From assembly GCF_020859565.1 (NCBI RefSeq), contig NZ_JAJHUO010000010.1, forward strand, positions 186,001 to 250,000: 64,000 bases of DNA. Direction: 5' to 3'. Positions 39,854 to 44,472 of this stretch are shown here, piece by piece. Position numbers and translations under genes: made by a program. The first letter of the stretch is position 1, and each line of letters begins with the position of its first letter. This DNA is from Saccharothrix luteola. GTDB lineage: Bacteria; Actinomycetota; Actinomycetes; Mycobacteriales; Pseudonocardiaceae. Under the pieces are notes generated by a model. It ran no database searches. It was not told the origin of the DNA and was given only the letters and a program-made list of their open reading frames with translations.

Positions 39854-41962
39854 ATGGCTGCCGACTCGATCCTGCTCGCGGGCCGACCGTTCCCCCTCGG
39901 GGCGCACCCCGAGGCCGGAGGTGTGCGCTTCGCGGTCTCGGCGCCGCCCGCCCACGCCGTGGAAGTGTGCCTGATCAGCGAAGACGGCACCGAGGAGCGG
40001 GTCGAGCTCACCGAGCGCACGTTCGGCGTCTGGCATGGGCTGATCTCCGGCGTCACGCCCGGCCAGCGCTACGGCTACCGCGTGCACGGGCCGTACGACC
40101 CGTCACGGGGCCTGCGGTGCAACCCGGCGAAGCTGTTGGTCGACCCGTATGCGACGCGGATCACGGGGACGTTGTCCGACCTCGACGCGGCGCTGGGCTA
40201 CGTGGACGACCCGATGCTCGGCGGACCGTCACCGGTCGACTCGCTGGGCAGCGTGCCGCTGTCCGTGGTCACCTCGCCCGGCGGGCCGGACACTGGCGTG
40301 AAGCCCGAGGTGCCGTTCGAGGAGGCGGTGTTCTACGAGCTGCACGTGCGCGGGTTCACCAAGCAGCACCCGGCCGTGCCCGAGCACCAGCGCGGCACCT
40401 ACCTGGGGCTGGCGCACCCGGCCGTGCTGGAGCACCTCACGCGGCTCGGCGTGACGTCGGTCGAGCTGCTGCCGGTGCACGCGTTCGTCGACGAGCCGTC
40501 GTTGATCCGCGACGGCAGGCACAACTACTGGGGCTACTCGCCGCTGAGCTTCTTCGCGCCGCACCCCGCCTACGCCAGCGAGCCGGGGCGTGAGGTGGAG
40601 GAGTTCCGCACGATGGTCGCCGCGCTGCACAACGCGGAGATCGAAGTGATCATCGACGTGGTGTTCAACCACACGTGCGAGGGCGGCCCGGAGGGTCCGA
40701 CGCTGTCCTACCGGGGCTTCGACGCTCCCGGCTACTACCTGCACATCGACGGCGGCGGCACGCTCGACATCACCGGCTGCGGCAACACCACCGAGGCCGG
40801 GTCGCCGCAGTTCGTGCGGCTGGTGACGGACTCGCTGCGGTACTGGGCCACCGAGCTGGGCGTGGACGGGTTCCGGTTCGACCTCGCGTCCACGCTGGGC
40901 AGGCCCGGCGGCGGCCGGTTCGACCGGGCGTCGGCGATGCTCACCGCGATCACGCAGGACCCGGTGCTGTCGCGGTGCAAGCTGATCGCCGAGCCGTGGG
41001 ACGCCACCGGCGACGGCTACCGGGTCGGCGACTTCGGCGTGCAGTGGGCCGAGTGGAACGGCCGGTACCGCGACACCGTGCGCGACTTCTGGCGGGGCAT
41101 GACCAGCGTGCGCGACCTGGCCTACCGGCTGTCGGGCTCGTCCGACCTGTACGCCGACGACCTGCGGCGACCGTGGCAGTCGATCAACTTCATCACCGCG
41201 CACGACGGGTTCACCCTGCGCGACCTCGTGTCGTACAACGAGAAGCACAACCTGGCCAACGGCGAGGACAACCGCGACGGCACCAACGACAACCGGTCGT
41301 GGAACTGCGGCGTCGAGGGCGAGACCGACGACCCGGAGGTGCTGGCCCTGCGCGCCCGGCAGGCGCGCAACCTGTTCGCCACGCTGATGCTGTCCACCGG
41401 CACGCCGATGCTCACCGCCGGTGACGAGCAGTGGCGCACCCAGGGCGGCAACAACAACGCGTACTGCCTGGACGACGAGACCTCGTGGGTGGACTGGGAG
41501 CTCGGCGGCGAGGGCGAGGCGATGCTGGCGTTCGCGCGGCGGGTGATCGCGGTGCGCCGCGCGTCGCCCGCGTTGCGGCAGCCGCAGTTCTTCGACGGCC
41601 GGACCACGTCGTCCGGGGCGCCCGACCTGGTGTGGTTCCGGCCGGACGGCGAGGAGATGGCCGAGACCGACTGGTTCGACGACGGCCGCCGGTTCCTCGG
41701 CATGTGGATCGACGGGTCGAACAGCCTGTCCCGCTCGCGTGACGGCGAACTGGTGTCGGACGACTCGTGGCTGCTGCTCGTGCACGCGGGCGCGGACCCG
41801 ATCGAGGTCACCCTGCCGGGGCCCGAGTACGGCGGGCGCTACGAGCCGACGATCGACTCCACCACGCCCGACGGCTCGCCCGCGGCCGAGGAGGGCCTGG
41901 CGGCCGGCGCGACCGTCGTGCTGGAGGGCCGGTCCCTGGTGCTGCTGAGGGTGCCGAACTGA
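39854..41962 (+). CDS. glgX: Glycogen debranching enzyme
   Basis: A 702-residue GH13 isoamylase-type enzyme that removes alpha-1,6-linked short branches from phosphorylase-limited glycogen. An N-terminal CBM48 domain covers about residues 10-100. The barrel has catalytic Asp in DGFRFDLAS (about D343), Glu in IAEPWD (about E380) and Asp in TAHDGFTL (about D451). LTAGDEQWRTQGGNNNAYC is typical of GlgX. ATG 39854. It stands alone with its own terminator but belongs functionally with glgP downstream. Confidence 0.95.
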   Translation: MAADSILLAGRPFPLGAHPEAGGVRFAVSAPPAHAVEVCLISEDGTEERVELTERTFGVWHGLISGVTPGQRYGYRVHGPYDPSRGLRCNPAKLLVDPYATRITGTLSDLDAALGYVDDPMLGGPSPVDSLGSVPLSVVTSPGGPDTGVKPEVPFEEAVFYELHVRGFTKQHPAVPEHQRGTYLGLAHPAVLEHLTRLGVTSVELLPVHAFVDEPSLIRDGRHNYWGYSPLSFFAPHPAYASEPGREVEEFRTMVAALHNAEIEVIIDVVFNHTCEGGPEGPTLSYRGFDAPGYYLHIDGGGTLDITGCGNTTEAGSPQFVRLVTDSLRYWATELGVDGFRFDLASTLGRPGGGRFDRASAMLTAITQDPVLSRCKLIAEPWDATGDGYRVGDFGVQWAEWNGRYRDTVRDFWRGMTSVRDLAYRLSGSSDLYADDLRRPWQSINFITAHDGFTLRDLVSYNEKHNLANGEDNRDGTNDNRSWNCGVEGETDDPEVLALRARQARNLFATLMLSTGTPMLTAGDEQWRTQGGNNNAYCLDDETSWVDWELGGEGEAMLAFARRVIAVRRASPALRQPQFFDGRTTSSGAPDLVWFRPDGEEMAETDWFDDGRRFLGMWIDGSNSLSRSRDGELVSDDSWLLLVHAGADPIEVTLPGPEYGGRYEPTIDSTTPDGSPAAEEGLAAGATVVLEGRSLVLLRVPN

Positions 41963-41965
41963 GTT

Positions 41966-41998
41966 GTGTCGGTGACCGACTGCCTCCGTCACCGACAC
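41966..41998. terminator. Terminator of glgX
   Basis: GTGTCGGTGAC pairs perfectly with GTCACCGACAC across an 11-nt loop, starting three bases after the glgX stop codon. Confidence 0.7.
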
Positions 41999-42055
41999 GA
42001 TCCTGCCTGGTGAGAGCCGTGCGCGCGGTGCGCGGTTCCGTGGCACGATGCCGGC

Positions 42056-42163
42056 GTGGCCCGTCCGTTGCTGACCTGGTGCGACCGCACGATCGACCTC
42101 CTGCTGGTGGCGTCGTGCGGGTGTAGCCGGACGCGACGCGGCCGGGCCCGCCCATCGGGTTGA
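42056..42163 (+). CDS. Cys-rich putative leader peptide upstream of cysteine dioxygenase
   Basis: A 35-codon frame starting at GTG 42056. Its middle, RTIDLLLVASCGC, matches the actinobacterial putative leader peptides that carry an R-x-(V/I)DL-...-S-x-x-C pattern in front of sulfur-metabolism genes. Cys codons occur at positions 9, 21 and 23. The last third of the frame lies inside a strong hairpin (42130-42177). This suggests ribosome-mediated attenuation sensing charged tRNA-Cys. A -10-like CACGAT ends 7 nt before the GTG, so the transcript may be leaderless. Confidence 0.6.
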   Translation: MARPLLTWCDRTIDLLLVASCGCSRTRRGRARPSG

Positions 42164-42177
42164 CGCCGCGTCGCGTC
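42130..42177 (+). promoter_or_regulatory. Attenuator-like hairpin between leader peptide and cysteine dioxygenase
   Basis: GACGCGACGCGGC (42130-42142) pairs perfectly with GCCGCGTCGCGTC (42165-42177) over a 22-nt loop that itself contains CCCATCGGG. The stem begins just after the Cys codons of the leader and includes its stop codon, so ribosome position would decide whether the hairpin forms. The operon start codon is 46 nt further on. Confidence 0.6.
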
Positions 42178-42222
42178 TTGATCGCTACCCCGCCCGACCC
42201 GTAGCCATCAGGAGCGACCCAC

Positions 42223-42801
42223 GTGACCGCGACGATCGCGCGCGCCGACCTGCACCCGAAGCTGGACGTGCGGTTCCTGCGCGACATCATCCACCCGGAA
42301 CGCGACCTGTGGACGCCGCGCGAGCTGCGCGAGCTGACGTCCACCGTCGCCGCCGAACTGACCACCCCGTTGCTGGACGTCCTCCGGTTCGACCCCGATC
42401 GGCGCTGGTGGGCGCGGCTCGGGCTGACCGAGGGCGTGGAGCTGTGGCTGCTGAGCTGGCTGCCCGGTCAGGGCACCGAGCCGCACGACCACGGCGGCGC
42501 GGCGGGCTCGTTCACCGTGCTCACCGGTGAGCTGGCGGAGGACTACCGCTACCCCGGTGGGCCGATCCGCAGCGCGCGGCGGCCGGTGGGGAGCGCGTTG
42601 GGGTTCGGCGCGGGGCGTGCGCACCGGGTGCTGAACCAGGGCAGCACCGGTGCGGCGAGCGTGCACGCCTACTCGCCGCCGCTGGTGCCGACCCGGGAGT
42701 ACCCGAGCCTCGCCGACATACCGCAGGAGATCCCGCCGTTGCCCGCCCTGCGGCTGCCGTTGGAGCAGCTGCGCGTTCTGGCCGACCAGGAGGGTCCGTG
42801 A
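42223..42801 (+). CDS. Cysteine dioxygenase
   Basis: A 192-residue cupin enzyme that oxidises L-cysteine to cysteine sulfinate with a mononuclear iron. Metal-binding His residues are in EPHDHGG (the H-x-H) and GRAHRV. The family segment GSFTVLTGELAEDYRYP follows the first cupin motif. GTG 42223 is preceded by AGGAG with 7-nt spacing. The 4-bp-overlapping rhodanese gene suggests joint sulfur handling. It follows the leader peptide/attenuator and is probably controlled by cysteine availability. Confidence 0.9.
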   Translation: MTATIARADLHPKLDVRFLRDIIHPERDLWTPRELRELTSTVAAELTTPLLDVLRFDPDRRWWARLGLTEGVELWLLSWLPGQGTEPHDHGGAAGSFTVLTGELAEDYRYPGGPIRSARRPVGSALGFGAGRAHRVLNQGSTGAASVHAYSPPLVPTREYPSLADIPQEIPPLPALRLPLEQLRVLADQEGP

Positions 42802-43184
42802 GTGCCGAGGAGTTGCTGGAAGAAGCGCGGCGGTCGTTGAGCCGCGTGTCGCCGGAGGAGCTGGCCGGGCTGTCCGACGTGCTGGTGGTCGACATCCGAC
42901 CGCACCACAACCGTGCGGCGGAGGGTGAGATCCCCGGCTCGATCCCGGTGGAGCGCATCGTGCTGGAGTGGCGGCTGGACCCGGACGGCGAGCACCGGAT
43001 CCCCGGCTTCACCGCCGACACCACCGTGGTCGTGCTGTGCAACGAGGGCTACGCCTCCAGCCTGGCCGCCCGCGACCTGCAACGGGTGGGCCTGCCCCGC
43101 GCCACCGACCTGATCGGCGGCTTCCGCGGCTACGCCGCCGCCGGGCTCCCCGTGCGGCCGGGCGCGACCCAAGCCGTCACCTGA
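42798..43184 (+). CDS. Rhodanese-like sulfurtransferase
   Basis: A 128-residue single rhodanese domain. VVDIRPHHNRAAEGEIPGSI is the CH2A-like region, and the catalytic Cys is in VVVLCNEGYASSLAA (the active-site loop CNEGYA). It would move sulfane sulfur, complementing the upstream cysteine dioxygenase. GTG 42798 overlaps the dioxygenase stop by 4 bp. It ends at a long imperfect palindrome that probably terminates the operon. Confidence 0.9.
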   Translation: MSAEELLEEARRSLSRVSPEELAGLSDVLVVDIRPHHNRAAEGEIPGSIPVERIVLEWRLDPDGEHRIPGFTADTTVVVLCNEGYASSLAARDLQRVGLPRATDLIGGFRGYAAAGLPVRPGATQAVT

Positions 43185-43187
43185 CCG

Positions 43188-43315
43188 TCCCGAACGTCGA
43201 ACTCGGGGTACCCGAACGTTCGACACGCCGTACCTGAGTGTTCGACACGCGCGAGAGTCCTACGTTCAGGTCCGGCGTGTCCTACGTTCGCGTACCCCGA
43301 GTTCCGCATTCGGGA
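43188..43315. repeat. 128-bp imperfect palindrome with TTCGACACG-type repeats
   Basis: A large imperfect hairpin. The block AACTCGGGGTACCCGAACGT (43200-43219) is matched by its reverse complement at 43284-43303 with one mismatch. Further pairing extends inward and outward to 43188 and 43315. Short direct copies GTTCGACACG occur twice in the left arm, and TCCTACGTTC occurs twice in the right arm. It lies between the rhodanese gene and the next gene, so it may be both a terminator and a REP-like dispersed repeat. Confidence 0.6.
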
Positions 43316-43347
43316 ACCGGGAGGCGGGCGGTAGCGTCTCCAGGTCC

Positions 43348-44472
43348 GTGTGGAAAGCGCTGACCGGGTTGGCCCTGGTCGTCCTCGTGGTCTGGCGGCC
43401 GGGTGTCGCGACGTTCGGTGGGGCCGCGGCGGGGACGTGGGCGGTCAACGCGGCGTTGCAGCTCGGCTTGCTCGCCGGCGCACTGCTGTTCCACGTGCGG
43501 GTGCCGTTGGTCGAGATCGGCGTCGGCGGCGAGATCCGCACGTGGACGAAGCCGCACCTGCGGGTGGTCTGGCGGACGATCCCGTTGCTGATGTCGGTCG
43601 GCCTCACGTCGATCAAGGCGCCGGTCCGCCGACGGTTGTGGCTGACCGGGCTCACGTCGGCCGTGGTGGCCGCGGCCGTCGTGGCGGTGACCTGGCTCGG
43701 CGCGCTCGTCTGGTCGGACGCGGACCAGCCGTTCCTGCGCGGCTTCGCGGTGGCGGGCACGGCCGTGCTGCTCAACGGCCTGTGGCCACGACGCGGCGCG
43801 GGCACCACCTCACCGGGCTGGTTCCTGTTCGCCCTGCCCCGCCTGTCCGGCCGCACGGCGGCCGAGTTCGAGGCGACACCCCTGGTCAACGAGGTCACCG
43901 ACGCGCTCGAAGCCGGCGACCTCGACCGGGCCGAGGCGCTCGCCGACGAACTGGTCGAACGCCACCCCACGTTGCTGGTCGCGATCGGCGCGCGGTCATC
44001 CGTGCTGACGCTACGCGCTCGGTACGGCGAGGCGTTGCACCTGGTCAGCGGCCTGGTCGGGCGCACCGACCTGGAGCCGCGCGACATGGCGTTCGTGCTC
44101 GCCGCGATGGCCGGTTCCACGGCGAACGCGGTCGAGGGCGGCCAACTGCCCGCGGACGTCGGCGTGCCCGCGGCGAAACGCGCGGCGGACGGCGCGATGA
44201 AGTTCGGCTACCCGCGCCACCGCTGCACGGGCACGCTGGCCCAACTCGCCCTGATCGAGCGCGACCACGCCACCGCACTGGCCCTCGCCACCCAGGCCAA
44301 GGCGACCAGCGAGACCGGTCTCGCCCGCGCCGACGCCCTGGCCACGATCGCCCGCGCCCACATGGCCGCCGGTGACAACGCGGCGGCCCGCGCGAGCCTG
44401 GTCGAGGCCGAACAACTCGCCGGCTGGATGCCCCGGGTCGCGGAGACCACCGCCCGGCTCAACATCACCTGA
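43348..44472 (+). CDS. Membrane-anchored TPR-like protein, unknown function
   Basis: A 374-residue protein. Hydrophobic helices lie at about 3-20, 28-50, 103-123 and 130-148. Between them is a site-2-protease-like stretch (VPLVEIGVGGEIRTWTKPHL), but no HExxH motif is present. Residues about 178-370 are paired amphipathic helices resembling tetratricopeptide repeats (ALEAGDLDRAEALADELVER, AHMAAGDNAAARASLVEAEQ). A scaffold role at the membrane is likely; no enzyme activity can be inferred. GTG 43348. Its end overlaps the convergent secreted-protein gene by 8 bp. Confidence 0.7.
   Translation: MWKALTGLALVVLVVWRPGVATFGGAAAGTWAVNAALQLGLLAGALLFHVRVPLVEIGVGGEIRTWTKPHLRVVWRTIPLLMSVGLTSIKAPVRRRLWLTGLTSAVVAAAVVAVTWLGALVWSDADQPFLRGFAVAGTAVLLNGLWPRRGAGTTSPGWFLFALPRLSGRTAAEFEATPLVNEVTDALEAGDLDRAEALADELVERHPTLLVAIGARSSVLTLRARYGEALHLVSGLVGRTDLEPRDMAFVLAAMAGSTANAVEGGQLPADVGVPAAKRAADGAMKFGYPRHRCTGTLAQLALIERDHATALALATQAKATSETGLARADALATIARAHMAAGDNAAARASLVEAEQLAGWMPRVAETTARLNIT

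Follow-up and report, generated by a model that had tools for sequence, protein, structure and literature searches.

A conserved cysteine-codon leader and hairpin precede a cysteine dioxygenase–rhodanese operon in Saccharothrix and its relatives and may form a translational switch of inverted sign

The stretch of DNA analysed here, 64,000 nucleotides long and referred to below as the window (G000:C2:186001-250000), belongs to a genome of 10.3 Mb and is, by sequence, close to Saccharothrix; its cysteine dioxygenase (CDO) shares 94% identity with the Saccharothrix carnea enzyme. The parts of the leader and operon mapped in the window lie on the forward strand. The CDO gene occupies positions 42223-42801 and encodes a predicted type I enzyme (CDO1) that matches PF05995 at 8.4e-16 and passes the profile at 58.4 bits against a cut-off of 23, with His88, His90, His134 and Tyr150 of a YSPP motif all present; in such enzymes the three histidines bind the metal. 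The CDO stop is overlapped by the start of a rhodanese-domain gene (PF00581; 42798-43184), and the CDO start is preceded by a Shine-Dalgarno (SD) sequence, AGGAG, read from the sequence at 42210-42214; across 85 loci this element is AGGAG in 44 and GGAG in 30. Between the rhodanese gene and the next ORF, positions 43190-43310 hold repeated GTTCGACACGCCGTACCTGAGTGTTCGACACGCG-type inverted and direct repeats, seen by eye. A search of NCBIfam gave no model match for either the leader or CDO, and a search of Rfam with 41900-42400 gave two matches, both far under the gathering score.

Directly upstream of CDO lies the Cys leader that the preliminary description had recognized, an ORF of 35 codons at 42056-42163 that starts with GTG, ends with UGA at 42161-42163 and encodes MARPLLTWCDRTIDLLLVASCGCSRTRRGRARPSG, with a conserved core around (V/I)DLxxV..C. 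Such a short ORF, with Cys codons near its end and directly 5' of a sulfur/cysteine gene, has two codons of special interest, namely UGC at 42116-42118, where Cys is found in 58 of 86 leaders and is missing in the other 28, and the last Cys codon, UGU, at 42122-42124, which is invariant. The transcript probably begins at or next to the GTG, making the mRNA leaderless, because a -10-like element, CACGAT (42044-42049), with TG before it (TGGCACGAT), stands 6 nt upstream of this start codon; at all of 85 loci NANNNT stands 6-7 nt upstream of the start assigned to the leader, a count shaped in part by the use of this same feature in assigning the starts. About 45 nt upstream of the leader start, at 42010-42016 and in many of the relatives shown, there is a GGTGAGAG/TGGGAC-like motif that lies upstream of the usual -35 place and is perhaps a regulator site.

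A CDO of some kind was matched in 149 of 150 sampled genomes of the window's family, and the matches fall into two groups, CDO1, which includes the window's gene, and CDO2, whose matches are weaker; both are present in the window's genome. We examined 90 CDO1 loci, comprising the window's own (L001), a set of 29 and a set of 60, with the matches G031, G100 and G148 left out. Leaders were recognized by a regular expression of the form (V/I/L)(D/E)(L/Q/F)xx(V/L)...C, which requires a Cys and leaves its codon free. By this measure a leader precedes CDO1 in 86 of the 90 loci, the window included, and at two of the four loci without one (L069 and L070) the CDO start looks mis-assigned. In a set of named relatives that overlaps these 90 loci, the expression matched in 49 of 80; the 31 misses comprise 28 Nocardia, two Actinoalloteichus with no SD assigned and one metagenome-assembled genome (L201), in which the leader is visible by eye. 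One locus, L142, from a record titled Nocardia sp. NRRL S-836, carries a Lentzea-like leader and CDO, and its name may be wrong. Because the expression matched at only 1 of 49 CDO loci in other families, the device appears to be mainly a feature of the window's family; the search for the leader upstream of other CDO genes that the preliminary description had proposed was thus productive mainly within the family.

The last Cys codon of these leaders does not vary. It is UGU in 86 of 86 CDO1 leaders, in 49 of 49 of the partly overlapping named set, in 18 of 18 CDO2 loci taken with a DNA pattern that allows UGU or UGC (21 loci, three without a pattern match, the frame of L102 being doubtful), in 14 of 14 CDO2 loci picked by the peptide expression, and in 25 of 25 leaders upstream of DUF4395 genes (30 loci, of which four had no leader call and one no SD), rows of one genus not being independent in any of these counts. 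Otherwise these genes use UGC, with UGU at none of ten Cys codons in two neighbouring ORFs and at none of five in the CDO ORFs, and the codon two before the last Cys of the 86 CDO1 leaders is TGC in 52, TGT in 6 and another codon in 28. The base 3' of UGU, scored in 85 CDO1 leaders, is A or C, with T in 1% and G never. Since UGU is invariant in both CDO1 and CDO2 leaders, its third base would be selected separately from the amino acid. Within the peptide family at large the rule has exceptions: among the other leaders of the genome L114, L115 and L119 use UGU and L116 uses UGC.

Immediately past this codon the RNA can form a strong hairpin (hairpin I). The preliminary description had reported a perfect 13-bp inverted repeat, which we recover at 42130-42142 and 42165-42177; counting one G-U pair at 42129/42178 extends the stem to 14 bp, with arms at 42129-42142 and 42165-42178, both supported by covariation and the 5' arm also by a synonymous test. 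The leader does not merely run into this hairpin, as had been thought, because the 5' arm lies within leader codons 25-29 and the stop codon sits in the loop. When the codons 3' of the last Cys were resampled synonymously, the hairpin proved more stable than expected (z -1.26, 19 of 22 genera negative, p 3.6e-5) in a test that scored 75 of 85 loci, skipped 10 for want of space and did not choose loci for a hairpin; we prefer this value over the z of -2.28 from an earlier version, because the 56 loci of the latter had been pre-selected for a hairpin. The three exceptions in this synonymous test, genera g13, g25 and g46, show no hairpin signal and have leaders that end one residue past the Cys. 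Similarly, leader:downstream duplexes at unselected loci exceed those of shuffled leaders (mean z -1.39, 22 genera, p 8e-5). A clear stem is found in 62 of 85 loci; counted from the first base of UGU, it starts 5-9 nt downstream in 60 of these, although distances of 3-19 nt were searched. In an alignment of 36 sequences from Saccharothrix, Lentzea and Umezawaea (36 of the 37 listed, Actinosynnema being left out), 88.2% of the stem is paired and 22 cells are changed on both sides, against 10.2 +/- 2.2 in shuffles that do not keep relatedness and none of whose 500 rounds reached as high; the number of pairs with both-side change, 4 against 3.0 (119 of 500 shuffles), is not unusual. Thus the codons after the last Cys are, on the evidence of the resampling, chosen so that the hairpin forms, and hairpin I and the leader together are, by comparative analysis, a real and conserved regulatory element beyond chance. 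Conservation of the Cys codons and of the hairpin among relatives, whose absence the preliminary description had named as a refutation, holds within the family, and we consider it highly probable that a conserved Cys-leader RNA switch governs the CDO-rhodanese operon.

A GC-rich hairpin of this strength right after a control codon calls to mind transcription attenuation, in which hairpin I would end transcription as a U-less or Rho-linked terminator unless a ribosome stalled at UGU kept it from forming, so that starvation would turn the operon on; termination without a U-tract has been claimed in actinobacteria, which lends this scheme some support. The U-tract terminator of the classical transcription attenuator, however, is not found at CDO1, no T-tract follows hairpin I, and a scan of 41900-43400 gave no terminator-like site. 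Moreover, in 60 loci the end of the 3' arm lies a median of 43 nt from the CDO start (interquartile range 41-45) with the loop free to vary in length (16-65), a near-fixed spacing unexpected for a terminator. We therefore think such a terminator unlikely. With a near-fixed spacing to CDO and no terminator-like site in the scan, the arrangement suggests translational control, and control of the ribosome-binding site (RBS), which the preliminary description had offered as one role of the hairpin, is better supported than termination.

How the hairpin could reach the RBS is suggested by a second, alternative pairing. A strand that we call X (42170-42188) joins the final 9 nt of the hairpin I 3' arm to the 10 nt that follow it (outer arm plus anti-RBS segment GUCGCgUCUUGAUcGCUAC). 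Complementary to X is the RBS flank GUAGCcAUCAGGAGCGAC (42201-42218); the SD lies within this flank, which would pair with X in the proposed OFF state. Hairpin I and X:RBS are mutually exclusive at 42170-42178 because both use those bases. In the same alignment of 36 sequences 91.0% of the cells in the X:RBS helix are paired, a share that drops to 29-55% on sliding the helix, and its covariation is modest, with 3 both-side pairs against 1.0 (9 of 500 shuffles). Complementarity is also seen at the level of genera (mean z -0.71, 22 genera, p 0.018) and when the SD core is kept constant (z -0.58, 18 genera, 56 loci, p 0.017, this being the best of six windows). It is weak or absent in several genera, for example g17, g20 and g26, and the duplex is weak or lies off the SD in, for example, g16, g20, g26 and g27; some genera keep the topology in other letters, as g34 does with GCGUUCCGGUUC and GAACCaGGAGCGC. 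In the window's clade (Saccharothrix and Lentzea) conservation shows two partners open to the 3' arm, the leader and the RBS; elsewhere the second pairing is weaker. Another segment, GCUACCCCGC (42184-42193), kept in Saccharothrix and Lentzea, can pair with the Cys tract of the leader at 42117-42127; this helix is kept in 95% of cells, and we do not claim it as shown because it lacks covariation.

We read these features as a translational switch that ribosome position sets on an mRNA which is probably leaderless; that starvation turns it OFF is a reading to which we would give an even chance. When Cys-tRNA is scarce, a ribosome would wait with UGU in its A site. With a codon in its A site, a ribosome covers the RNA to about 12 nt beyond that codon's first base. 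The stalled ribosome would thus mask some 5 nt at the start of the 5' arm and with them about five outer pairs of hairpin I; the outer 3' arm freed by the stall would pair with AGGAGCGAC and shut off translation of CDO and rhodanese. When cysteine is plentiful, ribosomes would pass and leave, hairpin I would form and take up X, and the RBS would be freer and the genes ON. With this wiring cysteine would therefore induce its own oxidation. Against such an inverted arrangement it can be said that the 5' arm would also be covered by a ribosome that has reached the stop codon.

Folding predictions bear on the sign of this response to differing degrees. In the window fragment after UGU stalling lowers the predicted accessibility of the SD from 0.26 to 0.01 (p 0.02, 60 flank shuffles), and over 18 genera and 56 clear-hairpin loci mean SD access falls by 0.08 against 0.04 in the null (p 0.07). 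When the post-UGU RNA of 84 loci is folded alone, a count made without a null, more than 0.1 of SD access is lost in 29 and gained in 6, and leaving out the first 45 nt of the leader, as though a following ribosome covered them, gives agreement in 15 of 18 genera (p 0.038). These results are sensitive to the length of leader included, and folds of the whole transcript show no difference in SD access with and without a stall (10 of 18 genera, p 0.44); in the window it is 0.02 free and 0.01 stalled, the SD being buried either way because other leader stretches (CUCCUG and an earlier one) can pair with it. The preliminary description had argued that ribosome passage, and not stalling, should favour expression; the RNA wiring leans this way, and since the thermodynamic tests are moderate or neutral we treat the starvation-OFF sign as a hypothesis favoured by the anatomy, one that in our judgement is evenly poised.

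The same folds give room to an ordinary, starvation-ON Cys attenuator, in which the default fold hides the RBS, partly via leader sequence 5' of UGU, and a stall breaks that fold. The whole-transcript fold does hide the SD, and leader positions -30 to -4, shortly before UGU, show complementarity to the RBS (p 0.004-0.008). M. smegmatis polycysteine short ORFs, moreover, are reported to use translation attenuation (PMC9031893, PMC13236596), the CDO2 leader of this genome is wired in the starvation-ON manner, and same-family leaders in the genome precede genes that look by eye like sulfur genes, for an SsuA-like binding protein, a nitrite/sulfite reductase, DUF4395/rhodanese, and a ferredoxin with a binding protein. 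Synonymous choice, however, does not support the pairing of the -30 to -4 segment with the RBS (p 0.23), so that we set this pairing aside as complementarity without a synonymous signal; the nucleotides 3' of UGU, the leader arm, show no complementarity to the RBS at CDO1 (z 0.07); a stall on the whole transcript brings no rise in mean SD access (0.16 versus 0.18); and the strongly conserved hairpin I would be left without a role. We consider an ordinary attenuator possible but rather doubtful, and judge equally doubtful its corollary, that the CDO-rhodanese operon belongs to a sulfur-scavenging regulon and not to cysteine disposal.

The CDO2 leader (L002, L113), on contig G000:C2 near 124764-124829, is a classic GHIDLRLVASALC leader, and the gene beside CDO2 looks by eye like a PLP enzyme of Cys/Met metabolism. 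It and its relatives share with CDO1 the peptide family, the UGU codon and a CDO homologue downstream, but differ in that the nucleotides right after UGU (CCUUCG and similar in most of them) pair directly with the SD, as borne out by z -1.28 against shuffled RBS (n=18, p 2e-5) and z -1.53 when the leaders are resampled synonymously (n=18, p 0.0004). Fixing the SD core in the null gives no clear profile for CDO2, presumably because the pairing involves that core itself. A ribosome stalled on a CDO2 leader is thus expected to free the SD, giving starvation ON. The argument of the preliminary description that a catabolic target by itself demands the opposite logic is therefore not compelling, because a CDO homologue in the same genome has the ordinary wiring. 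CDO1, which retains the three His along with the YSPP Tyr, reads HAYSPPL where CDO2 reads HVFRDGG, a pattern in keeping with, though no proof of, CDO1 being the true cysteine-disposing enzyme.

Leaders upstream of DUF4395/rhodanese genes behave differently again, with neither arm:downstream pairing (z -0.15, p 0.41) nor arm:RBS pairing (z -0.30, p 0.15) at 25 of 30 loci. In 11 of 25 leaders of this group (L255-L283), GGGCGG stands 17-20 nt downstream of the first UGU base, which is the spacing of classical attenuators; some also have CCGCC...TGACGG downstream and GTCAGGAG at the RBS, which suggests a classical three-strand attenuator with a geometry unlike that of CDO1. Because CDO2 and DUF4395 leaders differ in this way, a hairpin right after UGU marks CDO1 among the three leader types. 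Further DLRR..C-type leaders in the genome (L114, L115, L116, L117 and L119) are followed, by eye, by genes for an SsuA-like binding protein, a ROK-type regulator, a nitrite/sulfite reductase, a DUF4395-rhodanese, and a ferredoxin with a binding protein. Taken as a whole, the inverted attenuator, in which a hungry-codon stall shuts a catabolic operon, the CDO2 leader gives the opposite output from the same codon, and the third base of UGU is selected, is a tentative proposal that in our view falls a little short of an even chance.

The signal need not be the codon itself. The residues D, L and V at -9, -8 and -5 relative to the Cys codon are conserved, although a simple codon-starvation sensor needs none of them so far upstream, and this, with the invariant UGU, could point to a nascent-chain sensor in which the DLxxV..C peptide arrests the ribosome on cysteine itself and the arrest sets the RNA switch. 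In E. coli, tnaC and speFL encode leader peptides that let an amino acid induce its own catabolism by arrest at abundant ligand, TnaC and SpeFL responding to tryptophan or ornithine. The starvation-OFF switch proposed for CDO1 resembles these in letting an amino acid induce its own catabolism, but they arrest when the ligand is abundant, whereas the signal proposed here is a lack of arrest. Genes that are wired differently carry the same motif in front of them, and part of it was demanded by the regular expression, so that its conservation is partly built in; a nascent-chain sensor is accordingly the least probable of the readings considered, and to our minds quite improbable.

The textbook use of a leader-peptide attenuator is to switch on biosynthesis in starvation. 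The polycysteine short ORFs of M. smegmatis turn genes on when cysteine is short, and in the mycobacterial polycysteine type the Cys-codon sequence sequesters the downstream RBS. Such polycysteine leaderless short ORFs of mycobacteria are reportedly the subject of work by Canestrari et al. (Mol Microbiol, 2020). The CDO1 leader shares with them a probably leaderless Cys short ORF 5' of a gene and translational control without a terminator; it differs in having one or two non-contiguous Cys codons (C-G-C in the window) in a DLxxVAS peptide, a codon-tuned hairpin on the coding strand, a cysteine dioxygenase as its target and a predicted opposite sign. Sequestering of the RBS at the Cys codons is likewise supported in CDO2 and is not supported in CDO1. 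Mycobacterial polycysteine work is cited in PMC9094748, PMC13236596 and PMC9031893, and PMC4633059 deals with Cys leaders in actinobacteria. In Seliverstov et al. (2005, PMC1262725), Cys leader peptides precede actinobacterial cys operons and Bifidobacterium cbs; like the CDO1 leaders, these ORFs are short, have Cys codons close to the stop and lack a terminator, but they carry runs of Cys codons, have cys or cbs as targets and show no conserved terminator hairpin. PMC8079986, on S. lividans, names eight leader peptides, none of them described there as Cys-dependent. We found no leader before a cysteine dioxygenase in the literature searched, which holds few subscription journals. The comparison suggests that the CDO1 leader differs from the known actinobacterial Cys-leader attenuators in its hairpin, its target and its predicted sign.

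If the inverted wiring is true, then one peptide family and one codon, set upon two dioxygenase homologues of one genome with opposite RNA wiring, would show how the sign of a leader-peptide switch reverses, and actinobacteria would gain a protein-free means of inducing the disposal of cysteine.
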